Shown here in pieces: positions 41,773 to 63,431 of a stretch of 64,000 bases of DNA. Below the pieces are notes generated by a model. That model was not told the DNA's origin. It made no database searches and saw nothing but the letters and a program-made list of their open reading frames with translations. Source of the stretch: Asparagopsis taxiformis. Taxonomy: Eukaryota; Rhodophyta; Florideophyceae; Bonnemaisoniales; Bonnemaisoniaceae. The stretch covers positions 37,232 through 101,231 of the forward strand of contig JALQPE010001975.1 of NCBI GenBank assembly GCA_030407315.1, read 5' to 3'. Made by a program: the position numbers and the translations under genes. Every line of letters starts with the position of its first letter. The first letter of the stretch is position 1.

Positions 41773-41864
41773 AGTCTCTCTAGTACGGGTCCTAGTCGGC
41801 CCCGAGATTTACTAGAACAAATGAACGTCCGCGTCCAAAAAAAAATAAAAAATTTTTGGATGCG

Positions 41865-42139: not shown

Positions 42140-42254
42140 ATATCAGCGAAAACCGGGAGGGAAGAAATTACAGCGGATGGTAAATTCAGGGCCCATATCG
42201 GACCGTATTTTATTCTCTCATTTAGGAAACTGCTCGTATACAATACGTCTCTCT

Positions 42255-42390: not shown

Positions 42391-42849
42391 GTCAGCATAT
42401 CGTCGATCACCCATCTCCCTCAATATCGCGTTCTCCCTACCATCCGAACGCCATGCACCACCATCCGCACATACTTCAAGAACCCTCACGACCTAGATTA
42501 CAAAAATCCGCTCCTTCCCAATTCCATCCCCGCTTTCCTCGACACCACCCCAGCCCATTAAATCATCAAGACATCAAACACGAACATGGTCAGCAAAATC
42601 TTACACCACTTGAAACCACTCTCACTTCTATCGTATGCCCGAAAATATACACATACCAGAAACACCTCACAGCTTCATTCCCCATCTTCCTACATCCCTT
42701 CTTCACTCTCCTTCAGTCCTGCCGTTCCTGCTTCACCACTCCTGCATCACATACAAAACATCAACCCCAACAGTCAGATTCAAAAGCAACGCTTACCACG
42801 ACAGATATCCTAGAAACTCCCTTACTTACCTCTCCGAGAGGATGAGTGA

Positions 42850-43760
42850 ATCATCCATCCTACACAAAATACAAACCATGATCCAAAAACCTTGCAATGA
42901 ATAATCAAAGTCAGCAGTCCATATCTTCGCAAAACAAGTCTTGGTGCTCAGTGAAACTTACCTTCTGTCATCAACATTCCTGCACCATCTACACAACATC
43001 GGAATCAACCACAACAGTCAGACCCAAAACCAACCTTCCCTCGCTGCTTACTTTCAAAACTCGCACACTTACCTTCGCTCCACACAATACACACCATGAC
43101 TCAATAGGCTTCCAATGAAAAATATCGCATCAACGGAAATAGTCAGACTCAAAACCAACCTTCCCTCGCTGCTTACTTTCAAAACTCGCACACTTACCTT
43201 ACCTGTTCCATCCTGCACACAATAAAAACCATAAATCACGTAATCGTGTAGCCAAGAAAAGTAGTCAGCATTCCGCATCTTCGCACAACCGGTCTGGGCG
43301 CCCAATGTGACTTACCTTCCGTCATCACTATTCCTCCATCACCTACGCAACATCGGAATCAATCGCAACAGTCAGATTGAAAACCAACGTTTCCCTCGCT
43401 ACATACCCTGAGAACTCGCAAATGTACCTCTCATCCATCCTACACACAATACAAACCATGATCCAAAAACCTTGCAATGAATAATAATCATAGTCAGCAG
43501 TCCATATCTTCGCAAAGCACATCTTGGCACTCAATGAAACTTACCTTCCGTCATCAACATTCCTGCATCATCTACACAACATCGGAATCAACCACAACAG
43601 TCAGACTCAAAACCAACCTTCCCTCGCAGCATACTTTCAAAACTTCACGTACCTCTCTTCCATCCTCCGCTCAATACACACCATGAGTCAACAGGCTTCC
43701 ATGAAAAATATCGCATCAACGGAAATAGTCAGACTCAAAACCCACGCTTCCCTCAATGCA
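42850..43760. repeat. Long degenerate tandem repeats
   Basis: At least three imperfect copies of a unit of some 230-350 bp. Recurring phrases include ACACAATACAAACCATGATC, CTTGCAATGAATAA, CATCGGAATCAACCACAACA, and GTCAGACTCAAAACCAACCT followed by TCCCTCG. An inner subunit of ~110 bp (ATCGCATCAACGGAAATAGT onward) is also duplicated. No gene. Confidence 0.75.
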
Positions 43761-43827
43761 TACCCTCGAGGGTAGAGGATGGAACGAAGGTACGTGCGCG
43801 AATCTTGATCAAGATTCGCACACGTAC
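43761..43827. repeat. Two neighbouring palindromes
   Basis: TACCCTCGAGGGTA at 43761-43774 is a perfect 14-bp palindrome. At 43790-43827 lies a 38-bp palindrome centred on TTGATCAA, with a single mismatched pair between its arms. They sit at the edge of the tandem repeats, in front of the DNA transposon region. Confidence 0.85.
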
Positions 43828-44423
43828 AAAGCAAAGGCGGTCAAAGAATCTCAGTCGGTGATGAGGGCGGAGTGGAGCCTGCGGCGTCGACCGGACAGCT
43901 TTCTGCGTCCGCTTAAGTCTTGCTGTGCATACTCGAAATCATCGCCGGCAGTGAGATTGAGTATGGCCCAAGCCATGGTCTCTGATTCCCCGAACAATGA
44001 GATCCGGATCGAGAACAACGAATATAAACATATAATCATATATATGAGAATCCATTTGCTTTCCTTACATGATCCGTGGCATATCCGCTGTAAAGCACAT
44101 TCAGATTCCACGAAGTTCGGAAATAAAAAAGTTTATTATTACAAATGAATTAATTGAAAATTCATCTCCCAGGCAGTCGTTCGTCCTTCCATGCACACGT
44201 TGCCAGCACGCAATGTGATGTAACAGTTGGAAATGATTGAACTCTCGGTTAAATTCCACCGTTGGGATGTCAGCTGGAGTGAGCACAAAACTACTACCCA
44301 CAAAACTACGAACACGTTACATTCCAAGTCTCGAAAGCACCACAAAAATAAAATTGGTCGCATCTGGACGGCACAGTCTCCCCTGTTCAGCTCGCAATCC
44401 TCCCTTTTGCGTCAAAACTCGAC
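43828..44423. other. Region upstream of the Plavaka-type transposase
   Basis: AT-rich, no definite gene. A minus-strand frame (43851-44111) is open for 86 codons but unrecognised. The left terminal repeat of the CACTA/Plavaka element should lie here, but I could not match it to the right end. Confidence 0.4.
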
Positions 44424-47400: not shown

Positions 47401-47464
47401 CTATCTCAACCGCTTCTACACCAACACTGATTACCAGTTCACAGATGATAATGAAGAAGAATAA
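44424..47464 (+). pseudogene. Plavaka/CACTA-type transposase, one frameshift
   Basis: The protein begins MECKYEGCFYYCVDAYALAL followed by HERTC, a C2HC-type zinc finger like the one opening Plavaka transposases. The first frame (44424 to about 45155) and the second (from about 45170 to 47464) must be joined by a one-base shift in a pyrimidine-rich stretch near 45160-45175. The second frame continues with LLQVYSDKSSTSL and the domain blocks IFSFEPLHNLHLGISKLIKQ, KTFKFHLLDHLPGDLQRYGA, and DAGPYEHSHLLFKQSYRKTS. These resemble the C-terminal half of Plavaka/Tnp2-like enzymes. A GTAAGT at 44920-44925 could be a splice donor, but reading through it keeps a good frame. Confidence 0.78.
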
Positions 47465-47541
47465 ATCTAAATCGCAGCACTCTATTGATAATGTACTACA
47501 TGATAAGCCTTCTAGTCAACGTCACATTTACTGCACTAATT

Positions 47542-48147
47542 TCAACCATCCTCCATTACGCCAAAACCGTTATCAGCAGTGGCTGCATGGCGCCGCTCCA
47601 TGCCCCCATACTGTGGGGCATTGATTTCGACATTCAGGTTTGCACTCAGGTGTCCAGCATATGGGTCAACGACGAAAAGTTCTGCGCCAATTAGTCCTTG
47701 CGCAATCACACAATCCATTACAGCACCGAGGTTTGACGTAATATGCGATTGAATCCAATCCTCGGACACTAGAACAAGTGATGAGCAGCGGTTTACATCA
47801 TCAACGACATGAACAATTCCAGACCCCTCTCCGCTTTGCCACACTTCAACAGCCTCTCTCGTCACAGTACGGCTTGCAAACACATGCCGTGACTGTGCAC
47901 TAGTCCGCTGTTCGCTCTCGACAACGTCCGTTTCTTCCCTTGCTTGCGAGCCTTGGAGACAAGACATGCAGTACACCACCATACCAACTAATTGCTGAAA
48001 AGCTACCCCCACATATTGACTGTACCGCCTTGTAAACTCCTTCTGCCGTGCACCTCCTTTCCCCTTCGGTTCATCCAAACACTCCACAGTAGTCACTAGC
48101 CAAGCATCCAGGCGCGCCAGCGTTAGTATGCTCGTCTCTATGTCCAT
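47542..48147 (-). CDS. Accessory ORF B of the CACTA/Plavaka element
   Basis: A 201-codon frame (MDIETSILTLARLDAWLVTT) with no recognised domain. Its ATG (48147-48145) shares one base with the TAA stop of ORF A (48149-48147), giving TAATG. This arrangement suggests that both are translated from one mRNA by stop and restart, as in some LINEs. It ends 77 bases from the transposase stop on the other strand. Confidence 0.6.
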   Translation of the reverse strand: MDIETSILTLARLDAWLVTTVECLDEPKGKGGARQKEFTRRYSQYVGVAFQQLVGMVVYCMSCLQGSQAREETDVVESEQRTSAQSRHVFASRTVTREAVEVWQSGEGSGIVHVVDDVNRCSSLVLVSEDWIQSHITSNLGAVMDCVIAQGLIGAELFVVDPYAGHLSANLNVEINAPQYGGMERRHAATADNGFGVMEDG

Positions 48148-49826
48148 TACTTGTTCTGGTCGTATCGAATACCCCTGAAGATGTCCAGCACATTCACAGC
48201 TACTCGGTTGTTAAACCATGCATCACCATTCACTTCCATTTCGAAGCTGTCAGGAACCATGCCTTTGCTGTATCGCAGCTCTGAGAACGGTGCCGTTCGC
48301 CACCTCCCCATATCCAAATCACCGTTGCTTTCCCGTTTCAAAAGCTTCTCAGACGCTTCGCGCTTTTGATCCTCTCGCTCGTCCATCTCAGCTCGCGTCG
48401 TCAGCATCGTGCATCTAGACATTAATTTCGTGTACCCCAGCGAACCGAACAATCTGTCCCTCGCATTACGCTTCCGTGCACTCATCACGTCGGACAGTTT
48501 CTGCGTCACCTTCACTTTCAATTCCTTGCTCCCCGCCACAGCCTCTTGACAGCACACACGCTGCTCCTCATCGGAAAACACATCACACCACGGACTTTGA
48601 CGCAGTACGTGTCGCACCAAGTCATTCAGCAGATCACTCTCGTCTCTGTACGAAGGTGTATACCACTGCAGATTCTTGATGATATAGCCCGGAGGGGTAG
48701 CAATATATCCTACACCGTTTTCGCTCCAAAGTGTCCCTTCTACCGGCTCTACCTCGATGGTACGTCCAGTCCAACGTCTCTGCGTTTGTTCCGCTATAGG
48801 GTCCAGCTCCATAGTCTCGTTCTTGCACCACTTTGTCAGGTTTTCCTCAACCGCCCTAAGAACTCCAAGGTATTTCACAGGAATGGCTTTCTGTATTTTC
48901 GACTTACCGCCACCGTGATCACTGATTCTACCTGTTCTCGCAATTGCAGTAAGGCTGGCATTTTCCGCCTGCAGAGTCTTCACCTTAGCCTCCAACGCAA
49001 CTATCTCCGTGGTGAGCGCCTTGTTTGCTATGTCCTGGCTAAACACTTTTTTTTCCAGCTCCGCGATCTTCTTCTTCTGCGCATTGATGCGACTCGCCAT
49101 TAAATCGATGGATTCCGGCGGATGCAACCTCTCTGCCCTCACCGTCCCCCCATCTCGCACGCTATCGGGATTATGATGTCCTCCATCGGCAATAGCCTGA
49201 CGTCGCGGGGGCGTTACGCGCATATTTGGCACCAATGACAGTCTGTTGTGACGAGGCCCGCACTCCGGCTGCTCTCTCCCCTCAGTACCACCTGACCGCC
49301 GATGATAGTTGGCATCCTGTGAACGTTGCTCAGAAACAACATCCCTTGCCGCTATCCTCGGGTCCCTGACTGCATTACCTGCTGGGGCTGATGTACTCGG
49401 CATAGTTGGCGCAGTGGGGGTCACAGCCTCCAGTGTCTCGCGAACCCCCGGCTGGGACTCCGTCTGCAGCACCTCCGCATCTGCCAACCCGGGAGGAACT
49501 ACCTTTGCCATAGCACTCTGCCGCAATTCCAACATGTTTTGAGCCACTATCATGTCATCATCATGATGTTCACTGTCCCTGCGAGCACGCTTGCCTCGGT
49601 CAAGCCCCATCTCTCTCCGCGCCGTTCCTCCTTCCTCACTTTCTCGCTGCGGATCCCCAGTTCTGCGCCGGTCCGTCTTGCGACTACCGGACCGCGGTTC
49701 AATGCTGCCGGTAGGCCCAGACCGCTTCTTCGCACGGGATTGTCGGGCACTCGATACAGCAGCTGCTGACCGGGTTTTCTGGAGGCCCGGAGGCTTTGGA
49801 GCTTTCTTCGCAATACGCGGCGGCAT
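48147..49826 (-). CDS. Accessory ORF A, basic coiled-coil protein
   Basis: The 559-residue protein begins MPPRIAKKAPKPPGLQKTRS. The first 100 residues are strongly basic and probably disordered or nuclear-targeting. A long coiled coil at about 240-300 (INAQKKKIAELEKKVFSQ; EIVALEAKVKTLQAENASL) suggests dimerisation. A C-terminal region (YLGVLRAVEENLTKWCKNET; ARKRNARDRLFGSLGYTKLM) is well conserved in the decayed paralog at 6929-8269. I do not recognise a named family. Position opposite a CACTA-like transposase suggests a TNPA-like, DNA-end-binding helper; this is inference. Confidence 0.7.
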   Translation of the reverse strand: MPPRIAKKAPKPPGLQKTRSAAAVSSARQSRAKKRSGPTGSIEPRSGSRKTDRRRTGDPQRESEEGGTARREMGLDRGKRARRDSEHHDDDMIVAQNMLELRQSAMAKVVPPGLADAEVLQTESQPGVRETLEAVTPTAPTMPSTSAPAGNAVRDPRIAARDVVSEQRSQDANYHRRSGGTEGREQPECGPRHNRLSLVPNMRVTPPRRQAIADGGHHNPDSVRDGGTVRAERLHPPESIDLMASRINAQKKKIAELEKKVFSQDIANKALTTEIVALEAKVKTLQAENASLTAIARTGRISDHGGGKSKIQKAIPVKYLGVLRAVEENLTKWCKNETMELDPIAEQTQRRWTGRTIEVEPVEGTLWSENGVGYIATPPGYIIKNLQWYTPSYRDESDLLNDLVRHVLRQSPWCDVFSDEEQRVCCQEAVAGSKELKVKVTQKLSDVMSARKRNARDRLFGSLGYTKLMSRCTMLTTRAEMDEREDQKREASEKLLKRESNGDLDMGRWRTAPFSELRYSKGMVPDSFEMEVNGDAWFNNRVAVNVLDIFRGIRYDQNK

Positions 49827-50052
49827 AATGAAGCTTTCCCGGAAGCGATGGAACGATTGAGTTGCACGAGATACAAAAAAGATTGCTGTATAGTGTCGGT
49901 AACCACAACGGTCTGCGATGAACGTTCAGGTCAAGTACCGGAGAATACGCCAACAGCCCAGATTGTATACGGTAGGCAGTCATCAACAGTATTTAATGAG
50001 GTACAATTACAGCTGTCGAGCTAGGCCGCGAGCACCCCTATGTCCGGAAGAC
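49827..50052 (-). promoter_or_regulatory. Upstream region of accessory ORF A and transposon end
   Basis: Conserved with 8270-8495. The element end is near 50010-50017, where the minus strand reads CTCGACAGCTGTAATTG in place of the CACTACAGCTG seen in the other copy. Immediately beyond it starts the ~200-bp repeat, copy A. Confidence 0.5.
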
Positions 50053-50255
50053 GTCCTGATTTGAATTAAAATTTGGGCTATTCTCAAAAACATGCACATG
50101 TGAACATGTTTTTGAGATGGGGGTGTGCCGTACGGCACAATCGACCCGCTGAAATCGATGTTTTTTGCAATATTTTTTTCTGCCCTGAATTGTAGAATTT
50201 CTGGGCTGGACAGCAATGCAACTGAGCTGGACATCCACCGGGCGTCCATTTCAAC
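50053..50255 (-). repeat. Structured ~200-bp repeat, copy A (inverted)
   Basis: Opposite in orientation to all the other copies. The 16-bp palindrome TGTGCCGTACGGCACA is at 50124-50139. A hairpin with 12-bp arms, CTCAAAAACATG and CATGTTTTTGAG, lies beside it. It marks the left edge of the methyltransferase/ParB block. Confidence 0.92.
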
Positions 50256-50481
50256 TTGGTCTTGTATTTTGCATCTGCACGCATAACAGCAACCAAGCAG
50301 TCAGGTTCACTGCTCGGACGAAGTGCACCTAGAGTGTGAACGATTGGTTTTTGACAGGCGAGTACTGCTCAATAGGTTTCACCCTGGACTAATGGTGGCT
50401 GGACATGCTGCATTATATGATATACTTCAACTCTGGAACGTAGCTTTATTTGTAGTCGAAATGAAAACATCTTTCGTGACC
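50256..50481. other. 3' flank of the methyltransferase-SET gene
   Basis: No gene or repeat recognised between repeat copy A and the end of the methyltransferase gene. Confidence 0.4.
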
Positions 50482-53400
50482 CTAATTCCATGCTCTAAAC
50501 GCTGTCCCATAATGAACGTAGAGCTCCTGCCCCGGACGGATATCGCGGATTGCACGTACTACAATGATCTTCGGATTTTCTAGGTCCTTCGCCTTGAGCT
50601 TCTTCCCCGTCGAACCGCTGCTGTAGTTCTCGACAAACTCGACGTTGGCCATCCGCCTGGTGTCTTCCGCCGGAGTGTCCTCACCTCGCAAATACCGCGG
50701 GTCGTTGATGAACTGCGCCGAACAGAACGGAGCCGGAACAATCCAAATTGGATGCTCGATGTTTTCGTCGTCCTCCGCTGTTGCATACAGCTTGATGGCA
50801 TACATCAAGAATGTTTCCTTCGTTATCGCCATGTGACCCTCTCCGTACGCGAACCTCATCGACTCCTTGCTCATATCAGAGTACACAACAGTTCCGTAGT
50901 ATGCACATACTTCGTCGCCAACATTAAATGTCTGTTCAGCGAAGAGCCCTCTTCCTGCATTTGGATGCTTAATCAGCGATGGTCGAACGCTCAATTTTTT
51001 CGCAACACAATCGTGTGCCCGCATCACGCGAGGGTTTTCAGTTTGCAACCAGCGGCGCAGGGAAGGTGGCCAATAATGTACCGGTTTTTCCATGTGCTCG
51101 TGCGACGCAATCGACTCTGGGCACAGCTGCCAGAGGTACTGCCGAATATATTTCGGGAACCTCTGGTACAGGGGAAGGCCAGGTGGGGGTTCGATGATCC
51201 TGCGTTCCCTCTGTGTACGCATCGTGACAGAGGGGGACGCCAAGAACTTCTCAGCACTCTGTTTCGCTTCTGTCGTGACCCTCATGTCAGTGTTGTTTGA
51301 AAGAATTACACGTGACATGACTGCACACAGCTTTGGAAGCGATCGTGCCACACACAATTTGTCCATGTCACTGCCGACGAAAACACGGTGCTCAGGCAAG
51401 CTCATAGCTGCTTTTCCCGTTGCGAAAGTGCCAGAGAATGGATCGACAACAATATCACCAGGCTGTGAATGCTGGCTGATCAACTCCATCATGAGAGCGA
51501 CGCTCTTCTGCTCTGCACGAACTCTGACCGTAGCACCGGTTGTGCTCCTTGTTCGCCACACCATCTCATTCGAATCGATGGCGGGCATATTGATGGTGAC
51601 GTTGCACCACGCCGGGTACGTGCCGTCCATGTATCCGTGGTTCCTATAGGCCACCATCTCGCTTCCAGTCTTGAACGGAACACCTCGCTTCCAGAAGTGG
51701 ATAGCGACCTCTGCCATGTTCATGCGTTGGTACCTCTTCCGCCCCGGCATTTGATAGAGGTGCCCAGGTAGTCGGACAAACAACAGAGGTACCTCGTCAA
51801 CGAAGAAAACTGAATTCCGAACGACGTCCTCCTCCTCCTCCTCCTCATCCGCACTTTCTTCGCCACTGTGCTGCGATGCTTCGGAGTCCGAATTCATGGA
51901 CGTAACCTCTTCTTCATCCGACCCGTCATCACTGGCAGCAGCATCGGTTGGGCCTTCTGACTGCGGTCCTTTGTACGTTTCCAAGTAATGGAACCATTCG
52001 TAGAACTGCAAAACGGAGCAGAACACGATGCCGTGGCCACCGGGGCGCAACAGCTCGTCAAACACTTCGATGCTAGCCTGCATATCTTCTGCAGTTAGCC
52101 TGTCGTACGAAGAGTTGGAATCGTTCCTCTTACGACGAACATTGTAGGGCGGATCAGTCAGAATGAGCTGAACGTTGCCCGTGATGGGCACGTGTTCTCG
52201 GCTCTCGTCGGCACTGACCAAATCTTCGAAAGGGACGTCGTACACCCGGCAATACTGACTCATTTTCGAAAGAAAGTCCTTTGCGAGAGCCTGCCCTTCA
52301 CTTTCCTGCTCTTCTGTCGCATGGGGTGACGGTGACGGGGGAGACGGCCCTTGGGCAGTAAGACTGGTCCTCCCAGGTCCAAGTTGAAGCCTGGTTGTGT
52401 GTCTTGTCGACGGAACCAAACCTCTCCCTCCTGTGTTGCGACGAGTGGGAGTGTCATCAACCGGCTTGGGGACCTTTTCTGCGTCCGCGGCTTGTGGTGC
52501 CGGGCGGAGGACAGCCATAACGTCTTCGTCGAGGGTGTCAAAGTACGCTGGCAGCTTGTCCGGATTTCCGCTTGACAAGTATATTTCCAGCGCCCCCCAG
52601 CGGTCGGACTCCGGCCAGGTGTACAGGTCCGGGTTGACGATAAGAAACTGCAACCGGTCGAAGAACTTCCTCACAAGGTCCCTAAATGCACTGTGCTGCG
52701 CACTGGTTCTTGTCTCTACTTTTCCACCATATCCATCAGGATGAGATAGGGGAGCTTTGTCGTGGTAGAGATCTAGCTTCTGCTCCATCGGTGCGAATAG
52801 ACCTTCATCGAGCACGTCAAACCAATGCTCACTGCTGTCGAAAATGATGTACGGCGCCATCAACTCTTCGAAGCTGGAAAACTTTGCGGCGAAGGCCACA
52901 TCGGTCCAAGCATGGTATAAAACTTGAACCACGTAACAAGCTCGATTAGTGCTTTTCCGATGGGCTGGGACGCGTGCGGCTTCGTTCCCCTCTTCGGCCG
53001 CGTCGCCTATTCGGCGACGCGGCAGGTTCTTGTTGTGATTTCGGATGATAGACAACGCTTGGAAATACATCAATACCTCGAACGTTTCCGGTGGAGCAAG
53101 AACGAAGGCGCTTGGTTCCCCGCGCTGCGGCGCCTGTAGTGGCGAAGGAAGCATGTTACATCCAATAAGGAAGGTCTGCGGCACGATCCCAGAAAGGATG
53201 CAGTGCTCAACCCATTGCCCGATACGCTCATCCTGTCTTGAAAACTCGGCAATGGGTAATGCCAGACGAACAATCTGCTTGGCTCGCTCAACGTTCATCT
53301 CTGCCATGACGATTTCGGCAACATCCGCCTCGACTCCAGCATTCTTCGAACGACCGCTGAAGGCCATGCTGAGTCGACCTTGCAGCGCCAGAAATTGTTC

Positions 53401-53673
53401 TTCCGTGCCCTGCGCAACCCAAGCGCCAAGGTCCGCGTATGTGAAACCTCCCGGCTTGTCCGTCAAGTCTGCGAAACTTGAGTGGGCGAATAAATCCAGC
53501 AAGAGGCGGAGGAAGTCTTTGCCAGCGAGAGTAGTTTCGCGGGCGGCGCGACCTACGTTTCGACGTGTACCCATGTCACTAGAATCCTCCCAAGGGCTAG
53601 CGGGTTCGCGCAGAATTGGCACGGTTGCGTCGTCAACGATCGGATTGCTGTTGCGCCTGCGCTTATTCGTCAT
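50482..53673 (-). CDS. Beta-class DNA amino-methyltransferase fused to a SET domain
   Basis: The 1,063-residue frame is intact. Residues 1-460 have no recognised domain and end in a Pro/Ser/Thr-rich linker. The catalytic motif VQLILTDPPYNVRRKRND has DPPY at 507-510; the SAM-binding motif DIVVDPFSGTFATGKAAM follows at 740-757. DPPY before FxG is the permuted beta-class order of N6-adenine or N4-cytosine enzymes such as CcrM. Between them lies an acidic, Ser-rich insert (576-617). Residues ~890-1060 form a SET domain: NAGRGLFAEQ, QFINDPR, NVEF and GQELYVHYG, so a protein-lysine methyltransferase with its cofactor and pseudoknot motifs. This pairing of DNA-type and histone-type methyltransferases in one chain is one I do not know. 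No intron is evident. It diverges from the ParB/dioxygenase gene. Confidence 0.85.
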   Translation of the reverse strand: MTNKRRRNSNPIVDDATVPILREPASPWEDSSDMGTRRNVGRAARETTLAGKDFLRLLLDLFAHSSFADLTDKPGGFTYADLGAWVAQGTEEQFLALQGRLSMAFSGRSKNAGVEADVAEIVMAEMNVERAKQIVRLALPIAEFSRQDERIGQWVEHCILSGIVPQTFLIGCNMLPSPLQAPQRGEPSAFVLAPPETFEVLMYFQALSIIRNHNKNLPRRRIGDAAEEGNEAARVPAHRKSTNRACYVVQVLYHAWTDVAFAAKFSSFEELMAPYIIFDSSEHWFDVLDEGLFAPMEQKLDLYHDKAPLSHPDGYGGKVETRTSAQHSAFRDLVRKFFDRLQFLIVNPDLYTWPESDRWGALEIYLSSGNPDKLPAYFDTLDEDVMAVLRPAPQAADAEKVPKPVDDTPTRRNTGGRGLVPSTRHTTRLQLGPGRTSLTAQGPSPPSPSPHATEEQESEGQALAKDFLSKMSQYCRVYDVPFEDLVSADESREHVPITGNVQLILTDPPYNVRRKRNDSNSSYDRLTAEDMQASIEVFDELLRPGGHGIVFCSVLQFYEWFHYLETYKGPQSEGPTDAAASDDGSDEEEVTSMNSDSEASQHSGEESADEEEEEEDVVRNSVFFVDEVPLLFVRLPGHLYQMPGRKRYQRMNMAEVAIHFWKRGVPFKTGSEMVAYRNHGYMDGTYPAWCNVTINMPAIDSNEMVWRTRSTTGATVRVRAEQKSVALMMELISQHSQPGDIVVDPFSGTFATGKAAMSLPEHRVFVGSDMDKLCVARSLPKLCAVMSRVILSNNTDMRVTTEAKQSAEKFLASPSVTMRTQRERRIIEPPPGLPLYQRFPKYIRQYLWQLCPESIASHEHMEKPVHYWPPSLRRWLQTENPRVMRAHDCVAKKLSVRPSLIKHPNAGRGLFAEQTFNVGDEVCAYYGTVVYSDMSKESMRFAYGEGHMAITKETFLMYAIKLYATAEDDENIEHPIWIVPAPFCSAQFINDPRYLRGEDTPAEDTRRMANVEFVENYSSGSTGKKLKAKDLENPKIIVVRAIRDIRPGQELYVHYGTAFRAWN

Positions 53674-54001
53674 AATGGAATGAGTGGAAATTCGGTACAG
53701 GATGGCGACCGCTCGGCGAGACAGTCAAATTTGACGACGTATCTCGTGACGTTTGCACTCTTTCGTGAGGAACACTGGTTGATATCGAACGGAACAGAGT
53801 ATACGGGTACACAGCACTGGAAAGGTCTTGAAACCCGTAACCGGTGTAGGTAATAAGTTGTGACGGATACGTGGTAGAGAAAAATTTTAAAAAGATTGTG
53901 ATTCCCTGTCTTTGAGTGTTGTACTGCACGGCCGCCATGGCGGCTGTGACTGCAGTCACATAGGTTGTCACAGGTGCATCACGCTTACCAGGTGAGCGAC
54001 A
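53674..54001. other. Divergent promoter region, methyltransferase side
   Basis: Presumed promoter and leader of the methyltransferase-SET gene. CCATGGCGGCTGTGACTGC near 53936-53954 is a short GC-rich patch. No definite TATA box. Confidence 0.35.
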
Positions 54002-54203
54002 TCCGGACGGCCACTGGACATGGGGATGTCCAGCTCAGATGCATTGCTGGCCAGACCAGAAATTCTACAATTTCGGGCAGAAAAAATATTGCAAAAAACA
54101 TCGATTTGGGCGGTCGATTGTGCCGTACGGCACACCCCCATCTCAAAAACATGTTCACATGTGCATGTTTTTGAGAATAGCCCAAATTTTAATTCAAATC
54201 AGG
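54002..54203 (+). repeat. Structured ~200-bp repeat, copy B
   Basis: Palindrome TGTGCCGTACGGCACA at 54119-54134, with the CTCAAAAACATG hairpin just after it. It lies alone in the divergent intergenic region, about 330 bases from the methyltransferase start. Confidence 0.92.
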
Positions 54204-54499
54204 ATGCAGATATTCGTCTTCTAGCATTGTCAGAACACATTCGTATAACCACATTTGGAGAACCTGAGCCCAGAGCTATCGGTTTTGGCGGGAGCTAAGC
54301 CATATCTCATATAATCAGTAACTACTTCCCGCCAGCTGAGTGGTGGAACCCCTGCTATTTCTACCAACGAGACATACGGGGTGTCAACTCGGCAATCGTA
54401 TATGATTTGGGTGCTAAATTTATTCAAGAGACGAATGGGCTTCGAAAAGGAGCCCAACAACGTCTTCTTGTGATCCATGGGTATAGGACTATCTATTCT

Positions 54500-54815
54500 T
54501 CTCCAGGCTTCCACCATAGCCTCCTCCACCACCTCCGTTAATGGATCGAATATCCGAACCGCACCTCAACATGCTTTTCTTCTCATCCATGGGTACTGAC
54601 ATCTCCGAGATGTGAGTCACATGTTCTCCAGGCTTCCACCGTAGCCGCCTCCTCCGCCTCCGTTAATGGCAACAATATCCGAACCGGACCTCAACATGTT
54701 TTTCTTCTCATCCATGGGTACTGACATCTCACATGTTCAACATGTGAGATGTCAGTACCGGAGAAGTTCTCCAGGCTTCCTCCGTAGCCACCTCCTCCAC
54801 CTCCGTCTGTGGGAA
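54500..54815. repeat. Tandem repeat of ~131-137 bp with a perfect 43-bp palindrome
   Basis: TTCTCCAGGCTTCCACC-type units begin near 54500, 54631 and 54768. The second unit contains a perfect palindrome at 54717-54759: arms of 21 bases starting GGTACTGACATCTCACATG around a single C. On the minus strand the units read Gly-rich (GGGGGGYGGSLEN-like), but the period is not a multiple of three, so no continuous protein results. Confidence 0.85.
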
Positions 54816-55346
54816 TCAACACAACATCACCACTGCGTCTTACCTCACATCCACATCTCTCCGGGATGAAAACGGACGGACGACATAGGGTTTGTAGACG
54901 TTTAGAATCTTGTTAGAAAAAAGTAAACGAAAGAGAACTTCTCTTTCATTGAATGATATCTCGTCCCTGTCGCAATATGTTCCATTTTCATTTTCTCGGG
55001 TTGCACACCCATCATGGGTGATCAAGGCCTGGATCGAACCCTCCGAGGGTCTTCGATGGATAGGACAGATAGTGGAAGGCTTTTAAGCCTGTGACCAAGC
55101 GGCTATTGATTGGTTGGAGGAAGGAAATTACAGAGGAAATATAGCTGAGTACGGTGCTCGCGATAGCTGTTAGGTTAAAGTCAAATATGTTTTTCGATTA
55201 TTTTTCGTACGGAAATGCCTTGGAAAAGACGATGCTTTGTCGTTCTCCTGGAGGGAGTCCGTTGCATTGCACTCAATTCGAGAGCATCGTCATGAAGGAG
55301 AGGATTCTTTCTGCTTGTTAGAATCGGTTTAGAGCAGATAGCTAAT
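54816..55346. other. Intergenic stretch, nothing recognised
   Basis: No ORF or repeat that I can support. A tRNA-like B-box word near 55030 was examined and rejected. Confidence 0.4.
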
Positions 55347-55511
55347 GCATTACTGGCCAGCCCAGAAATTGTAGAATTTCGGGCAGCAAAAATATTGTAA
55401 AAAACCTTGATTTGGGCGGTCGATTGTGCCGTACGGCACACCCCCATCTCAAAAACATGTTCACATGTGCATGTTTTTGAGAATAGCCCAAATTTTAATT
55501 CAAATCATGGT
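55347..55511 (+). repeat. Structured ~200-bp repeat, copy C (5'-truncated)
   Basis: Lacks the GGACGTCCGGTGGATGTCC head but keeps the palindrome at 55425-55440 and the following hairpin. It is followed by the 185-bp spacer that links copies into a ~388-bp unit. Confidence 0.9.
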
Positions 55512-55696
55512 GTCTAATTTGGCCACAACGGCCCCAGGCACCGGCCGCCGCCCCGAGTGGGGTTGTCACTGGCTTCTGTAAGCACTAACTGTAAGGCTAA
55601 ATGGCGTCTGACGAAGGGTCGATTTCAGGCTCAATACGCCAGGGACAGGTCTTGGTCCTTGTTCCATCATGGTCCCACCCACTCTCTCACGACCAA
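55512..55696 (+). repeat. 185-bp linker of the ~388-bp higher-order unit (first copy)
   Basis: Starts TCTAATTTGGCCACAACGGC and includes AGGGACAGGTCTTGGTCCTT. The same linker recurs at 60677-60861 and 61523-61708, each time between two structured repeats; a partial form is at 61065-61215. Confidence 0.88.
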
Positions 55697-55899
55697 CCTG
55701 AAATGGACGTCCGGTGGATGTCCAGCTCGATTGCACTGCTGGCCAGCCCAGAAATTCTAAAATTTCGGGCACAAAAAATCTTGCAAAAATCAACGATTTG
55801 GGCGGGTCGATTGTGCCGTACGGCACACCCCCATCTCAAAAACATGTTCACATGTGCATGTTTTTGAGAATAGCCCAAATTTTAACTCAAATCAGGGTG
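55697..55899 (+). repeat. Structured ~200-bp repeat, copy D
   Basis: Full-length, with head CCTGAAATGGACGTCCGGTG; palindrome at 55812-55827. It ends about 340 bases before the ATG of the ParB/dioxygenase gene. Confidence 0.92.
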
Positions 55900-56239
55900 T
55901 TCCCCGGATAAAGGGGTGCTCGCAGCCGCCCCAAAAGCCGCCTAGCTTGACAGCTGTAATTTTAACACATTACACATCAAGGACACTGCCTGCTTCACGC
56001 CACCTCGTCAGGTTTCGAGAGCCCGACTCGGGCCCGTTCCGAACGGACACTCACATCTCGATTGCCTGTCTTGCATTCCAGCGGTCACGATAGGTGTGTA
56101 CCTAACAAAATTTCGGTTGTATTGTGTTATTATTTCCAGCGATTGGCGTTCACGACCATTCTTCAACGTGAAACATACCATCCACATCACTCGAATACGT
56201 CAACGTCAACCATCTCTTTTCCTTTCCAACTCAACAACC
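55900..56239 (+). promoter_or_regulatory. Presumed promoter and leader of the ParB/dioxygenase gene
   Basis: The ATG at 56240 sits in a good context (AACAACCATGG). The leader is A/C-rich (CTCAACAACC), as seen in many highly translated eukaryotic mRNAs. No clear TATA box. Confidence 0.4.
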
Positions 56240-59200
56240 ATGGCGGATACGCATTTCAGCAGTTTGTTTTCAACGGTTTGCGGCGATCAAGTGAGCGCGT
56301 CAGCGGAGTCGCGCGGACTCAAGCGCGGCGTCGATGTCAATTTGTTTGCGGACGTGGACGGTGCGGCTGTGCATATTGGGACGGCTTCGGTGAGCACTGC
56401 TGGTGGCGATGTTGGCCTTCCGCGCACGCTGCACAACCACAAGCTGCCGGAAACCGACGAGGCGGACTATATCGTCGTGCGCAACATTGCGACTAAGGAC
56501 AAGTTCAAGGACCTCCCGTTCCCGTACATGTTTGATGGCGCCGAGGGACCGCCGGAGACGATGGGTGGAGCATACGCCGCGGCGTTTTACCCTTGGGATA
56601 CTCGGATGATGCGCCCCGCTGCGGAGGATGGCCCTAGCGACATTCGTACCCCTGCTGCAGCGTCAAACTTCAACGCAGCGACGAACCAGGCCAGCTCGGG
56701 ACGGATGCCCAGTACCGGTCCGGCAGGCGAAATCACTGGTTCGGGGGGTACGAAGCATCCAGCACGCTCCGTCCCGGTTTCGGGAGGCACGAAGCGCCCT
56801 GCTCGCTCTGCAGAGCCTCCAGTGGAGGCACGAAGCACCCTGCTCGCTCCAACGTCACCGAAGCTACTACGCAGGACGTAACCGAGGTGGACGACGAACC
56901 GGAGGTGGCGGAAAGCATTCGTGAGCAGCAGGGGACGCAAATTACGGTGCCCAAGTTTGTGACGTCGGATTACGTCGGAGAAGGAGCGACTGTGTTGGTG
57001 AGGCAGCTAGTGGAACCGGCCGTGACCCTTCGGGATGTGAAAGAAGACCACGTGGAGGACCTGCGCAACAATATGTTGGCTGTGGGGTATGTGAGCTCTT
57101 CGCGTATCACTGTGACGGTGCTGAGGTCGCAGAACACGCATCTGCCCGCCGACACGCGTCTGTTCCAGAATGGCAAATTCCATGCCAATGCGAACGTGAC
57201 CGTGATCGACGGACTGCATCGTCTCAATGCTATGCATAGCATTGCCGATGACTTCACGCGCCTCACCCGTATGCACAGAACCAAGCTGCCACAGGACGCA
57301 AACCGCTTGCGCTGGGTTACTCAGCCTCTGGATGTGTACTACCTTCGCCGCAAGGACGACAGTGATCTTCAGCCTCATGAGATCATCCACAAGAGTGCAG
57401 AGTCGAACCATACGACTGGGACGCAACTGACGGAGCGCTCCCTGGTTCGAATCTTGTCGTCCATCCAGCAGTTCATCCGTACGATTGCTGTTGCAAATAA
57501 CGTGGAAAACGCTGGCGACTTGCGTGAGTCTGATGTCATCCGAACATTGTTCGAGGCGCAGTTCATGGGGATGATGAATTCAACGAACACGGCCCGGCGG
57601 TGGACGCGTTTGGCTATAGCAACGCTGAAGCATCCTGTTCTCGACGAAGTGTTGCGTGAGCTGAACAATTCCGAGCGCCGCAACGAGATTGGGATAACGC
57701 ACCTGGACCACAAGATAGTGCGCGAGTTGCTGGAAGAAAACTTTGTCTTCGTCTTGCGTGGTCTTTCGGAGTACTTGAACCCTGCTCATGGTGGACGTCC
57801 GGATGGACGCTTTGACGTGAACGACTTCTATACATACGTCCGTCGCGTGACTGCAATAGCAAATTCTCTGTACGCTGCGTTTGGGCGCCCAAAGAGTATT
57901 ATGCGCAAGTCATTTCTGAGCACAGAGATGGCAATTGGGTCGGTTAAGCAGCCGAAGGAGTTGCAATGGCATCTCACCAATGCCATTGCAATGTATAGAG
58001 GGGACGACCGGAGCAGTGAGGTTCGAATGCGACGGAGAACCACGCGTTTACAGGATTTGGAAACGAACTTGAAAGAGTTTTTCAATCCGACATTGAAGAA
58101 GAAGACTAAGGCTCGACGCAAACGCCGCCCTTCTGCTGCCAATGTGAGACTCACTCACAAGAAGCAGCGGAATGTCGAACATGAGCCTGCTTCGCATGGC
58201 ATCCGCCGCCGTTCACAGCGACTTCGCTCGACGGGGAGCACACGCCTCGAGGAAGAAGAGCCGGTTGTGGTACAACAATCCGCCGGGGAAGAAGAGCAGG
58301 CCGTTGTTGATAAACCCACCGATCAACAACAAGCCACTGCTTCCGGTGATGAGGTTGACGAAGACTCCGCCCGTTCCCCCGATTCTGCCGTTGAGATTGT
58401 CCCCCAAGATAACCAACGTGCTGGTGCGACTCCCTCCAACCAAGAATCTGTCCATACCGCTTCGGACGAGGAAGACAAACAACGGTGCAGACGAGGGCCA
58501 AGTCGAAAGCAAGGGGGTCCGCGAAGTGACAATTACATTCACTGTTCCGGAAGGAGTGGAAGTCGATGAAGACGGTTACATCGTTCGTGACTCTCCTTCT
58601 GAACACGACCTCCTGTTCGACGACCGTATGCCATCTCTTCCTGACGATTTCGAAGTCAAAGACCGAGCCGAAGGGCATCATCTGGCGCAGCGTCCCGCGG
58701 ACGTCATCGCATCGGTGAGGGTTGGCTGTCTGCCCCCGATTGAGCTCAGGTTGTTATTGGAGAGTGTGGAAATCGATGAGGAGGGCAGAGAGGTGAGGTA
58801 TTTGAAGCAAGTGGCGATGGACCCTGTGTTTGAGGGGCTGCATATTCCGGAACAACATCGGGCTCGTCATCTTGTTTTCGAGATCGACACCATCTATCCG
58901 ATGTTTTTCGCAGCGTGGAAGATGGCTGCCAAGGCGATGTGTGAGCCTACATCGACGTTTCTACCCTCGAGGCTGGACTTCGCCCAGGTTGCGCGAATGT
59001 CTACAAGCTGGAAGGATTCGTATGAGGCCGGCACTGGTATGGCGTACTTCCACAATTGCCGAACGGAAATCAACGAGCGAGGGTATACGGTGATGCACAA
59101 TTTCGCGGATGTAAGCTACCTCGATGCGTCGGACAAGTTCCCATTTGACTTGGGTCTCATGGAAGAAATTCCTAACCAGGAATTGTTTCGGTACTTCTTG

Positions 59201-60196
59201 GGAACATGGGAGGGGGAGGAGGTGCACAAGGACCCTGGGAACCGGCAGCTGTGGAGTCCCATTGTCAATACGGGGGACGATGAAACAGATGAGAAGAACC
59301 GGAATGAGGGGAGGGCTCGCTTCACGTCTACGCGCCACTGCCTGGTTGACTATGCCGAGAACGATGAGACGCATATCGACCGGTTCAAGTTTGTGACGCG
59401 GCGAGCCCTGCTGGATGTGTGGTTGGGAATCCTTGTCCGGCTGATAGGGCTGGAGGAGTGCGGTTTACCGGGAGAAAAACTTGTCATGCCGGCATCTGGG
59501 GGACGGTTTTTGATAACGGGAAAGGGGTGTCCTCGGCAGGTCCCACACAATGATTTCCCTGTTCCTCCTCGCGACCGCAAAGATCAACTTCCGGGTTACT
59601 TTGTTATTGCCAACGGAGATGACCCATTCCCTATCTGGGTGTGTCCAGGGTCCCACAAGTACGTCTTTTCCAAAGCGCTGGAATTAGATATGTACGCCAA
59701 GACGATGAAGCTGAAGAAGGTAATCGTTCCGCCACGTTCAGTCTTCATCGGTCACGGCCATGTACAACATGCCGGGGCAGGGCATGTCGACAGAGTTGTG
59801 TCACACACGACAACGAGGTATCACACGTATTTCAGGAATGCGTCGTATCCGATTCCCGACAATGTTTCGTTTGGTTTCATCAGGCGGTTGGGATTCGAAG
59901 AAGAAGTAATCGCCAATGCTCCGCGCCGGTCTGCCAGGCAAAGTCAACCGGCACCTGTCAATGTTCGCCACAAGACAGTTGTTCCCATCCCGGTCAAGAA
60001 AGATCGTAGGCCGAAGACAGGGCAGCTCGGAATCATGCGGATGAAGACGACAGAAGCTCCCAAGAAGAGAACCCTCACACCGGGTGAAGAATTCATCTTG
60101 AGCTATTCAACTCCACGGTTGCCGATAACGCCTATTCTGCCGGGAGATCCTGAATATGATGAGGACGAAGACGAAGAACAATTTTCCGACGGCTAG
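56240..60196 (+). pseudogene. ParB/Srx-like domain fused to 2-oxoglutarate dioxygenase, two frameshifts
   Basis: Three overlapping frames form one gene of about 1,318 codons. Frame 1 (56240-~56815) is an unrecognised N-terminus ending in SGGTKHPARS-type repeats; those repeats continue in frame 2 after a one-base shift near 56812-56825. Frame 2 (to ~58480) holds a ParB/sulfiredoxin-type domain with VKEDHVEDLRNNMLAVGY and the hallmark VIDGLHRLNA, then a helical region and a basic and acidic linker. Near 58480-58490 a second shift leads to frame 3 (to 60196), where a PhyH-like oxygenase is seen: VPHNDFPV (H459, D461 of that frame), VCPGSHKY, FIGHGHVQHAG (H533) and RYHTYF (Arg for 2-oxoglutarate). 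The facial triad is complete. Because codon quality is good on both sides of each shift, base-calling errors are as likely as decay. Confidence 0.75.
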
Positions 60197-60473
60197 ATAG
60201 CTTAACAACTACTACTTTGGTAAACAATTATCGAGAATATAATCATCTCCTTTATCACTTTCAATCTATGAACCTAGTATAATGTACTTCCGTTCCATGC
60301 TTTCAAACTAGATTGTCCATTCCCTCGTGGGTTGGAGCATGATTTCCAGGACGATTCCCTCACATCTCTAGACTCGATGGTCTATGCTAGAAATAGCAGA
60401 ACAATTGGGTTTGTACGTGCTTCATCGCCTACTTGCTTCCGGTAATGTGTGGACGTGCACGATACACGATCAA
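60197..60473. other. 3' flank of the ParB/dioxygenase gene
   Basis: AT-rich, no gene. Probably the 3' untranslated region and polyadenylation area. Confidence 0.4.
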
Positions 60474-60676
60474 CCTGAAATGGACGTCCGGTGGATGTCC
60501 AGCTCAGATGCATTGCTGGCCAGCCCAGAAATTCTAAAATTTCGGGCACAAAAAAATTGTAAAAAATCAACGATTTGGGCGGGTCGATTGTGCCGTACGG
60601 CACACCCCCATCTCAAAACCATGTTCACATGTGCATGTTTTTGAGAATAGCCCAAATTTTAATTCTAATCAAGGTG
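60474..60676 (+). repeat. Structured ~200-bp repeat, copy E
   Basis: Full length; palindrome at 60589-60604. One hairpin arm has a single change (AAAACCATG). First of four copies downstream of the gene. Confidence 0.92.
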
Positions 60677-60861
60677 TCTAATTTGGCCACAATGGCCCCA
60701 GGAACCGGCCGCCGCCCCGAGTGGGGTTGTCACTGCCTTCTGTAAGCACTAACTGTAAGGCTAAATGGCGCCTAACGACTGGTCGATTTCCGGCTCAACA
60801 CGTCAGGGACAGGTCTTGGTCCTTGTTCCATCATGGTCCCGCCTCACTCTCTCACGACCAA
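60677..60861 (+). repeat. 185-bp linker, second copy
   Basis: Nearly identical to 55512-55696; joins copies E and F into a unit in which palindromes are 388 bases apart. Confidence 0.88.
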
Positions 60862-61064
60862 CCTGAAATGGACGTCCGGTGGATGTCCAGCTCGATTGCA
60901 CTGCTGGCCAGCCCAGAAATTCTAAAATTTCGGGCACAAAAAAATGTTGCAAAAAACATCGATTTGGGCGGTCGATTGTGCCGTACGGCACACCCCCATC
61001 TCAAAAACATGTTCACATGTGCATGTTTTTGAGAATAGCCCAAAATTTAATTCAAATCAGGGTG
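60862..61064 (+). repeat. Structured ~200-bp repeat, copy F
   Basis: Full length; palindrome at 60977-60992. It is followed by a shortened, internally duplicated linker (61065-61215) in which a GCCGCCGCCCCGATCGGGG phrase occurs twice. Confidence 0.92.
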
Positions 61065-61319
61065 TCTAATTTGGCCACAACGGCCCCAGGAACCGACCGC
61101 CGCCCCGATCGGGGGCTATCTTTGGCGTCTGTAAGCACCAACTGTAAGCCGGAACCGGCCGCCGCCCCGATCGGGGCTATCACTGGCTTCTATAAGCACC
61201 AACTGTAAGCCAAAACACTCTCTCACCATCACGTTACTCATATTCCGTGCACTTTATATTAGTAGTGAACCCGCCTGCTTAGTTGCTGCAATGCGTGGAT
61301 GTAGGCAGCACACGACCAA

Positions 61320-61522
61320 CCTGAAATGGACGTCCGGTGGATGTCCAGCTCGATTGCACTGCTGGCCAGCCCAGAAATTCTAAAATTTCGGGCACAAAAA
61401 ATATTGCAAAATTCAACGATTTGGGCGGGTCGATTGTGCCGTACGGCACACAACCATCTCAAAAACATGTTCACATGTGCATGTTTTTGAGAATAGCCCA
61501 AATTTTAATTGAAATCAGGGTG
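61320..61522 (+). repeat. Structured ~200-bp repeat, copy G
   Basis: Full length; palindrome at 61435-61450 is intact although neighbouring bases (ACAACCATCTC for ACCCCCATCTC) have changed, so the palindrome is better conserved than its flank. Confidence 0.92.
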
Positions 61523-61708
61523 TCTTTATTTGGCCACAACGGCCCCAGGCACTGGCCGCCGCCCCGAGTGGGGTTGTCACTGGCTTCTGTAAGCACTAAC
61601 TGTAAGGCTAAATGGCGTCTGACGAAGGGTCGATTTCAGGCTCAACACGTCAGGGACAGGTCTTGGTCCTTGTTCCATCATGGTCCCGCCCCACTCTCTC
61701 ACGACCAA
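61523..61708 (+). repeat. 185-bp linker, third copy
   Basis: Same as 55512-55696 with small changes; leads into truncated copy H. Confidence 0.88.
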
Positions 61709-61785
61709 CCTGAAATGGACGTCCGGTGGATGTCCAGCTCGATTGCATTGCTGGCCAGCCCAGAAATTCTAAAATTTCCGAAAAA
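61709..61785 (+). repeat. Structured repeat, copy H (truncated, no palindrome)
   Basis: Only the first ~77 bases (head and AGAAATTCTAAAATTTC) are present; the palindrome and hairpin are lost. It forms the right edge of the array. Confidence 0.85.
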
Positions 61786-63139
61786 TCAATTTGGTGGCCC
61801 AGCATCTCCTGTGCCGAAAATTCCCGCAGTCACTTCTGATATACTATATCGTAGTAGTAGTAGTAGTCTAGACGTGTTTCGCACTTGACGCATCAGGGAA
61901 GGCTGCACGGAAGGTTGAGACTACGCTACTTGCGTACCGCGTCGTCTGAAATAGCGAGTAGTGTTTGTTGTATAGTTGTGGAGTATGCGTCTAGTGGTTT
62001 GTAAAGCTTGCAGAACGGGATAGGGATGTGGGTGGCCCTATTTTATGAGTACATGAGTACCAATATTCAGGGTTGACAAAGCGGAAAGTCATAGGCTCGT
62101 ACATGTTTGAGATTGCATAGTGGAGAAAATATTTACATCGAAATTTACATGGAGCAGATGGAGGTTTTAAGGATGAGGTATGAGAGGAAGAAAATTCTTC
62201 TGTGGTATGAGGATGTGTTCTGTGGGGGATGCAATCTTGGGATGGTACAGGGGGAGGTGGAAATGTACGGAGTGCGGGTTTAGAATGGATTGTGATTCGG
62301 AGAGGAGTGCCGACAAGCATATTATGGGGATTGGGGAGACGCTGCGGGGTGTTGGGGTAGTGAGGGCAGAGGAGGTGTTTAGGTGGGACCGTAGGAGGGT
62401 GCGGTTGAAGGCGCCGAGAGGAGGGGTTTTTAGGAAAGTGAGGAGAAAGAAGGGGAGGGGGTGGCGTCTGTTCTGGCTGTGGTGAGTGGGGATGTGATGG
62501 AGAAGAAGGGGGTTATTGTATTTGGGGAGGGAGGGGAGTGGGAGGATGGGTGCGAAGTGGGGGGTTGATATGTGGTTCAGAGCGGGGAGGTTTCTGGGGA
62601 GACGGCGGGGGAGCGGGAGCGTGGGGCCAGTGTGGTGGTGTATACGGTATCGAAGATGCGGATGGCGTGGGGGCATGGAGCAGCTGAGGGAGGGAGGGGT
62701 GGAGCAGGTCGGGTACGGGATGGGGAGTGAGAGGTTTTGGAAGAGTAAGCTGCAGGGGAAGTTTGTGGAGAGGGCGAAGGAGAGGGGTTGAAGGTAGAGG
62801 AGAGAGGGTATTGAAGAACAATACGTTTCAAAGGTGATGGGGGAGAGCATGGTCGAGGAGATAGGGGGTGTTTTTCCCTATTCTGAGGTAGTATGAGGAC
62901 TGGTTATACGAAATCTGTACGGTAGAGCAGAACAGTAGGTATGGAATGGAGGTGTGCACCGTGGAAGCGGGGATAGGTAGCTGAAAATGCGTGCTAGAGT
63001 GGTATTGGGGGTGTTTGAGGTACAGTACGGGGGAGGTGAGCACCAACTGGAAGGGGGTGTGAGCGAGAGGATGAAAAAATTAAAGACGAAATTGGAGTCG
63101 ACCGACAAGGAAAAATAGAGTGGTCGCCGTGATGGATGC
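61786..63139. other. G-rich non-coding region
   Basis: From about 62160 to 62830 the plus strand is strongly G-rich and C-poor, which makes long but meaningless Pro/Leu/Ser-rich frames on the minus strand. A G-quadruplex-type stretch lies at 62596-62626, with four G-runs of three or more. A short plus-strand frame at 62180-62485 contains CTECGFRMDCDSERSADKH, slightly like a zinc finger, but it is not supported as a gene. A TAG/TAC microsatellite (GTAGTAGTAGTAGTAG) is near 61852-61867. Confidence 0.5.
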
Positions 63140-63431
63140 GGACATCCATGTCGAGCACGGCGGCAGAAATTTCTGGGGTCGAAATTTTTGAATTTCTGAA
63201 CCGGCGCCCGTCCTAGGTGGACATAGACATGGCGGAAGTCCATCCCGAGGGGGACATCCGTGGTACTAGAAACAATGAATGTCGTCCTAGTAATACTAGA
63301 CGTACTAGACCGCATGGACGTCCGGTTCTAGGCGGACATCCAAAAATACTGGAGAACATGGACGTCCGCCTAGTAATACTAGGTGTACTAGAGGTTGTGG
63401 ACGTCCGCGTCCATTTCCGAGAACACAGACG
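63140..63431 (+). repeat. GGACGTCC / CTAGTA-TACTAG satellite and boundary copy
   Basis: Contains several GGACATCC or GGACGTCC words, and CTAGTAATACTAG at 63287-63299 and 63370-63382. It also has CAGAAATTTCTGGGGTCGAAA, similar to the core of the ~200-bp repeats. It ends with the 33-bp sequence shared, inverted, with 41740-41772. Confidence 0.7.

Follow-up and report, generated by a model that had tools for sequence, protein, structure and literature searches.

The window, a stretch of 64,000 nucleotides from the red alga Asparagopsis taxiformis, contains a whole DNA transposon of the Plavaka type, whose features are listed in Table 1. In addition to its transposase gene, the element carries one or two putative coiled-coil reading frames, a gene that encodes a DNA methyltransferase fused to a SET domain, and a divergently oriented gene for a ParB-like protein that also resembles Fe(II)/2-oxoglutarate oxygenases. 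The original prediction had described the latter two genes as long divergent partners, and the first of them is intact and has Pfam domains above their cut-offs. The second is split over three frames in the window copy and is Pfam-negative.

Table 1. Features of the Plavaka-type element and its surroundings (positions within the window; TIR, terminal inverted repeat).
Feature	Position	Strand	Remarks
Whole Plavaka-type DNA transposon	41740..63431	+	21,692 bp; left neighbourhood common to 20/20 fetched copies
Left TIR	41740..41786	+	5'-CGTCTGTGTT...; 47 nt, 87% complementary to right end
Subterminal tandem array	41822..42165	.	43-bp unit; motifs resemble inner part of inverted repeat
Plavaka transposase	44424..47464	+	Pfam Plavaka, 8.8e-23
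Putative coiled-coil ORF(s), 559 and 201 aa	47542..49826	-	all coiled-coil matches below cut-off; region common to 20/20 fetched copies
Palindrome, inverted	50082..50117	-	about 365 bp beyond methyltransferase-SET 3' end
DNA methyltransferase-SET fusion (N6_N4_Mtase with motifs in beta-type order)	50482..53673	-	1063 aa, intact
Palindrome, intergenic array	54141..54176	+
Palindrome, intergenic array	55447..55482	+
Palindrome, intergenic array	55834..55869	+
ParB-like / Fe(II)-2-oxoglutarate-oxygenase-like protein	56240..60196	+	three frames in window, single frame in some copies
Palindrome, right array	60611..60646	+	one mismatch
Palindrome, right array	60999..61034	+	reference for 67-bp core comparison
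Palindrome, right array	61457..61492	+
Right TIR	63385..63431	-	...AACACAGACG-3'
Empty target site TT of shorter C12 copy	40808..40809	.	both 40-bp flanks match window, 2-bp overlap
Empty target site TA of shorter C138 copy	41534..41535	.	both flanks match window, overlap there

The transposase had been overlooked in the original prediction. Its Plavaka domain (PF18759) scores 81.5 bits against a cut-off of 26.3. The window copy has a frame break near 45161, which may be an assembly error, and both halves match a single protein of 1013 amino acids (P0018, 16 member sequences) at 98-99%, whose own Plavaka domain scores 86.1 bits. The protein searches each scored about 8000 candidates, namely those sharing most words. 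This transposase is likely the mover of the element. The termini read CGTCTG..CAGACG, with a CAGATG end in two copies (C2876 and C847), and they match neither those of PlavakaA (TGT..ACA) nor those of PlavakaB (CATCA..TGATG), which places the element outside both named sublineages. On the basis of the Plavaka domain, the inverted repeats, the 2-bp target duplications, two empty target sites and the counts of exact 45-mers, there is hardly any doubt that it is a cut-and-paste giant transposon of the Plavaka type (CACTA/EnSpm-related) that has recently been amplified and carries accessory genes.

Exact 45-mers of the element's parts occur at least 736-1200 times in the 141.5-Mb genome, while their reversed controls do not occur at all; the count is 1200 for the left TIR (control 0) and 1170 for the right TIR (control 0). 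Shorter copies with the same ends are present as well. Twenty copies were fetched from a list of 43 places of the methyltransferase-SET gene, and these copies are nearly identical. The ParB-oxygenase gene could be aligned in part or whole at the expected place in 17 of the 19 copies, chosen by the methyltransferase-SET gene, whose other side could be fetched, and the other two are truncated by contig ends. An exact probe found the right border at 10 of 19 right-side loci, and the left border was found at 7 of 10 loci. The target duplication that the original prediction had proposed to look for was seen in 13 of the 20 complete copies, measuring 2 bp in twelve and 3 bp in one, where about 1.3 would be expected by chance; the other seven have none, and three of six further copies have one. 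The window copy has no target duplication at its borders. Both empty sites lie outside the transposon within one Ty3/gypsy-like element, as judged by eye. The left flank of the window copy resembles a Ty3/gypsy gag, and the matching stretch at locus L029 continues differently from the right flank of this copy, a mismatch that could stem from recombination or an assembly join. The proposal of a mobile module is supported by the gene pair in 17 of 19 copies, the target duplications and the two empty sites, but the proposed borders at 50053-61785 were wrong.

The pairing of exact 45-mers was counted from places on contigs up to C199, comprising 91 of 1200 for the left end (L), 80 of 968 for motif P, 50 of 736 for the methyltransferase (M), 71 of 828 for the oxygenase (X) and 100 of 1170 for the right end (R). 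From L, P was found at the expected place in 51 of 91 cases and R in 7 of 91, while X was followed by R in 57 of 71. M had X at the expected distance in 14 of 50 cases, in 7 more the expected place falls before the start of the contig, and 29 are other misses. Partners may be missing because of contig ends, mutations in the 45-mers, shorter elements or nesting.

In the methyltransferase-SET protein, Pfam N6_N4_Mtase matches residues 501-772 (2.6e-15, above the curated cut-off) and SET matches residues 907-1056 (1e-6; 29.5 bits against a cut-off of 22.4). Beta-class amino DNA methyltransferases are characterized by a DPPY motif that precedes the FxGxT motif, and here DPPYN is located at 507 and DPFSGT at 744. 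DPP and GT are invariant in all eight aligned proteins, and so are the SET residues N990, N1010, E1050 and Y1055. M.BceJIV, M1.HpyAVI, CcrM and N4CMT (8s9m) are among the top fold matches of the methyltransferase model, and its best PHROGs match is the phage methyltransferase family phrog_67 (4.9e-17). The reading frame is open at 43 of 43 places, a count that is skewed toward intact copies because only the candidates with the best scores are included. For the relative P0004, an N-terminal ParB box is not claimed, as just 14 columns around DGAHR align. Viral relatives were also rejected: a virus scan with query A4 found none, and query A1 gave three weak matches, one of which (L001) has a separate methyltransferase-like ORF of 300 aa, while the other two (L002, L003) have no 250-aa ORF at the match.

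The profile searches that had been suggested for both proteins thus recovered N6_N4_Mtase and SET, whereas Pfam detects no domain in the ParB-oxygenase protein, including no Tet_JBP match. Among 17 other fetched copies, four have all three marker motifs of this protein in a single uninterrupted frame, and one of these encodes 1304 aa (P0017); in the remaining 13 they do not share a frame, and in two of these the oxygenase motif was not found. The ParB-like part of the gene product is supported at the level of structure prediction, where a ParB/sulfiredoxin fold is predicted in a relative of the protein. Fe(II)/2-oxoglutarate oxygenases share the signature H-x-D ... H ... R, and H1088, D1090, H1162 and R1178 of P0017 are conserved without exception in the nine proteins aligned. 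Fold matches of the oxygenase region are weak, a Foldseek search with the P0009 model returned no match below E 1, and a sequence search of the PDB with the ParB-oxygenase found no relative below E 0.3. According to the available part of PMC12730594, PE-type TET proteins are likewise hard to recognize by sequence. A bacterial source was considered and rejected: a single scan of bacterial and archaeal genomes found one locus (L094), a contig of 3.4 kb assigned to a Moorena MAG that is probably misbinned eukaryotic DNA.

The expectation of at least seven structured repeats, with the one at the left edge inverted, was borne out by seven copies of a 36-nt palindrome in the window, six on the forward strand and an inverted one at 50082. 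A genome-wide count gives 7333 places for the exact 36-mer and none for its reversed control, and one copy with its surroundings (101 nt), folded as single-stranded DNA, gives z = -5.2; both the abundance and the folding are far from chance. Palindromic repeats are also found in shorter elements that lack the exact gene motifs. When the palindrome at 60999 was compared with its counterpart in the central, non-coding part of a shorter element, 0 differences were found in a 67-bp core and 20 in 100 positions of the flanks, in what amounts to one comparison only, since the two copies of the shorter element are near-identical mirror images. A core that is unchanged while its flanks differ by 20% suggests a cis-acting site. 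On the 357-kb contig C12, two elements bounded by TIRs make up 7.5% of the sequence and contain all nine exact palindromes, and the corresponding numbers are 6 of 10 on C14, 7 of 10 on C11 and 4 of 13 on C20, where the remaining palindromes adjoin other exact element motifs, as judged by eye. Of the 20 contigs that hold the first 100 of the 7333 places, three (C7, C32 and C39, with 8 of these 100) have none of five exact element motifs. The predicted tie between repeats and genes is therefore upheld by contig C12 and weakened by these three contigs and by the 14 of 50 M-X pairs; that the repeats are unrelated to the genes is rejected by the copies that share both and by contigs such as C12.

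We give about an even chance to the explanation that this giant transposon manages its own chromatin state with a writer and an eraser of marks and with sites where they dock, most likely against silencing. The methyltransferase-SET protein would write 6mA or 4mC onto the DNA of the element, and its SET part may methylate a histone or a protein partner. The ParB-like/oxygenase protein would dock at the core of the palindrome, perhaps in the form of an NTP-gated clamp, where its oxygenase part could oxidize methylated bases. Together, both proteins would keep full-length and shorter elements open to expression and transposition, and the enzymes and docking sites would form an anti-silencing system akin to VANC proteins and TET-bearing transposons. 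The identity and mobility of the element are shown; the catalysis, the binding to the palindromes and the direction of the effect are inferred. A bolder version, to which we lend some weight while doubting it, is that of a complete private DNA-marking system, in which a eukaryotic element would give its own copies a bacterial-type base mark (6mA or 4mC) together with a histone mark, and would read and erase at the palindromes via a loading and spreading ParB-like clamp; its chromatin state would then be set by itself and not by the host.

The same enzymes could also serve self-restraint or licensing, if they mark element DNA for recognition by the transposase or limit the transposase, for example by methylation state or by SET silencing of excess copies. 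The conserved palindrome core that recurs in shorter elements, the subterminal arrays with their likeness to the inverted repeats, and the presence of a candidate writer alongside a candidate eraser are consistent with such a role, but the high copy number and the near identity of the fetched copies do not look like restraint, and we regard it as rather unlikely. Both genes might instead be captured passengers of no epigenetic benefit to the element. Giant Plavaka repeats of Amoebidium with captured intron-poor genes (PMC11244446, as far as its available text goes) provide a precedent, and cargo would fit the disrupted ParB-oxygenase frames of the window copy and of 13 among the 17 fetched ones. 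Intact copies exist, though, the palindrome core is conserved along with the ends, and both gene families have kept residues of catalytic type even where relatives are just 23-30% identical, all of which makes passenger cargo improbable.

A ParB-like protein next to palindromes also recalls parS/ParB, and could partition an extrachromosomal stage or cluster copies. No ParA-like gene was recognized by eye among the listed ORFs, however, and the insertion signature is typical of cut-and-paste transposition, so that such a maintenance function is very unlikely. That the 12-kb gene pair is itself the mobile unit, bounded by its outer palindromic repeats as the original prediction had it, was suggested by two copies of a repeat, at 50024-50178 and 61396-61526, in inverted orientation. 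This is scarcely credible now, given that all 20 fetched copies continue leftward past 50024 at 99% identity and that the borders lie at 41740 and 63431.

In our preferred reading, that of a transposon managing its chromatin, the element may control its own silencing through enzymes with the apparent capacity for writing and erasing DNA and chromatin marks, encoded beside conserved palindromes. Transposons with a single epigenetic enzyme are known, and the presence of DNA-methyltransferase/SET, ParB-like/oxygenase and a candidate docking array in hundreds of copies would allow a direct test of how a parasite sets its own chromatin state. No title or abstract found by full-text search describes this enzyme set. 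TET/JBP oxygenases have been described in Plavaka elements and in other transposons (PMC12730594, available part), and Plavaka elements with or without TET/JBP resemble ours in the PF18759 transposase, the 2-bp duplications and the accessory oxygenase. Our element, which adds a Plavaka-type lineage beyond the two named ones and is probably non-fungal, differs from those in its termini, in an oxygenase that lacks a Tet_JBP match and shares its protein with a ParB-like domain, and in the additional methyltransferase-SET gene and palindrome arrays. The giant repeats of Amoebidium are similar in their very large size, their richness in genes and the transposase at the edge, and matches of their proteins have been reported in red algae and dinoflagellates; they have tyrosine recombinase genes, and methyltransferase-SET and ParB-oxygenase go unmentioned in the available part of that report (PMC11244446).

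A functional analogy exists to VANDAL elements of Arabidopsis, whose VANC proteins act on noncoding tandem repeats (PMC10398659), so that an element-encoded sequence-specific factor is combined with noncoding repeat arrays as cis targets (PMC10398659; PMC5735166; both from the parts available). VANDAL is of the MuDR type, whereas our element has predicted writer and eraser domains. SET genes are also carried by HarbingerS and MuDR transposons of Phytophthora, which have another transposase and for which the available part of PMC12730594 does not mention a fused DNA methyltransferase. N4CMT of bdelloid rotifers (PMC8885841) is, like our protein, a eukaryotic bacterial-type N6_N4 methyltransferase with a chromatin domain, but it is a rotifer gene with a chromodomain whose product is described as depositing 4mC at transposons, while ours is transposon-borne and has SET. 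Phage fusions of ParB with N6_N4 methyltransferases (PMC12704722) combine the same pair of domain types in mobile elements, where ParB is joined to the methyltransferase, whereas in our element the ParB-like domain is on the oxygenase. The element also adds a possible entry route of bacterial-type DNA methylation into eukaryotes.

The two long divergent genes and the at least seven palindrome-bearing repeats that the original prediction had placed at 50053-61785 are both present in the sequence, and they are almost certainly carried by a giant mobile element of the Plavaka type. Its transposase ORFs match the Pfam Plavaka family (8.8e-23), and both halves match a single 1013-aa protein (P0018) at 98-99%. 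The gene carries a frame break in the window copy, and the 16 member sequences of P0018 indicate that uninterrupted copies exist. Within the source assembly (141.5 Mb in 3156 contigs, the window included), the exact left terminus lies within 40 kb of the exact right one in 24 pairs, each on a single contig and in the correct order and orientation. Flanks were examined for 20 of these, and 12 have a 2-bp target duplication, one has a 3-bp duplication and seven have none, where about 1.3 of 20 would be expected by chance; three of six further copies also have a 2-bp duplication. Empty sites are available for two shorter copies (contigs C12 and C138), both flanks of which match, with a 2-bp overlap, one Ty3/gypsy-like element of the window.

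The tabulated right border was recovered with an exact probe in 10 of 19 right-side loci, and in four of the others the contig ends before it; the left border was recovered in 7 of 10 loci, and over 47 nt the two ends are inverted repeats of each other with 87% complementarity. At the left palindrome, a stretch of 130 bp is exact at all 40 places scored (of 1357 candidates), and by eye its offset to the methyltransferase-SET gene is constant at 435-436 bases in the six copies compared (C348, C284, C360, C136, C250 and C236). Leftward of that gene, all 20 fetched copies run on at 99.2-99.8% identity to about window position 47090, which is the limit of the fetched stretch. The ParB-oxygenase gene aligns partly or wholly in 17 of the 19 right-side loci, the remaining two being truncated by contig ends. 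Exact 45-mers occur 1200 times for the left end, 1170 for the right end, 968 for the transposase, 828 for the oxygenase and 736 for the methyltransferase, and the 36-nt palindrome occurs 7333 times; the reversed control of each word gave zero. We estimate that the 736 methyltransferase copies alone, if most are near full length, would account for roughly 10% of the assembly.

Features of the window and their coordinates
Feature	Position	Remarks
Ty3/gypsy-like element	250-6216	by eye
Stretch resembling the coiled-coil ORF	6930-8397	87% identical to 48479-49937; no palindrome repeats nearby; either a relic or part of another family of elements
ORFs resembling DDE transposase of another DNA transposon	10787-12462	by eye
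DIRS-type retrotransposon-like ORFs	24906-29306	recombinase and reverse transcriptase, by eye
Ty3/gypsy-like element	35886-41779	by eye; contains both empty target sites
Left flank of window copy	41640-41739	resembles Ty3/gypsy gag
Plavaka-type element	41740-63431	
Transposase ORFs	44424-47464	
Coiled-coil ORF region	48479-49937	
Methyltransferase-SET gene	50482-53673(-)	
Direct repeats in spacer between divergent genes	54443-54815	short, diverged, 112-143 bp apart, distinct from the palindromes
ParB-oxygenase gene	56240-60196(+)	
Right flank of window copy	63432-64000	no match to the continuation seen in locus L029

The methyltransferase-SET ORF is uninterrupted in the window copy, and the protein is full length and stop-free at all 43 places scored in the assembly, a biased sample as these are the best-scoring of 4135 first-look candidates. 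The ParB-oxygenase gene of the window copy is broken across three frames. Its N-terminal, ParB-like and oxygenase motifs share a single frame in 4 of 17 fetched copies, and thus the ParB-like and oxygenase parts form one protein (P0017, 1304 aa); they are also joined in one sequence in several relatives. Eight oxygenase relatives were found, one of them, a hypothetical protein at 27%, from the red alga Gracilaria domingensis, and a red alga is the likely host of the element. A ParB-oxygenase with 30% identity is also encoded on a 3.4-kb contig of a cyanobacterial MAG (Moorena), which is probably misbinned algal DNA.

The window copy's own flanks show no target duplication, and the two seem not to belong together. 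Recombination between copies may have caused this mismatch, or an assembly join may have done so. In another locus (L029:9255-10000), a stretch at 9283-9924 resembles the left flank of the window copy at 94% and continues, free of the element, past the point where the element starts, making it a possible empty site; directly before it stands the left end, in reversed orientation, of a different copy of the element.

Among the 24 terminus pairs, 14 have ends 10-12 kb apart with no exact gene motif between them, and the other ten span 14-29 kb with at least one such motif inside. One short element (on contig C14, locus L093) has mirrored palindrome repeats in its middle 3.15 kb, where neither an ORF longer than 139 aa nor a tblastn match to the protein set P0001.fa was found. 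Between its two mirror copies and the window palindrome w60999, the 67-bp core has no differences and the flanks have 20 of 100 (Fisher p = 1.6e-5), which counts as one comparison, the mirror copies being near-identical. Across the seven window copies, cores differ at 0-2 positions and flanks at 7-12 of about 100, with p < 0.05 for five of six contrasts and p = 0.32 for w61457. As single-stranded DNA, a 101-nt stretch spanning the core folds with z = -5.2. Gene conversion may account for the conservation of the core, but the simplest reading is that it is a candidate cis-acting site retained along with the element ends.

We consider it probable that the element's own enzymes direct the control of its silencing or licensing; anti-silencing is the form that we favour, at roughly even chances. 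Among the papers listed by searches of open-access full text, none presents a transposon with this enzyme set in its title or in the beginning of its abstract. TET/JBP oxygenases are known from Plavaka elements and SET genes from other transposons (PMC12730594), anti-silencing is described for VANC (PMC10398659), giant Plavaka repeats are reported from Amoebidium (PMC11244446), and in phages ParB is fused to an N6_N4 methyltransferase (PMC12704722).
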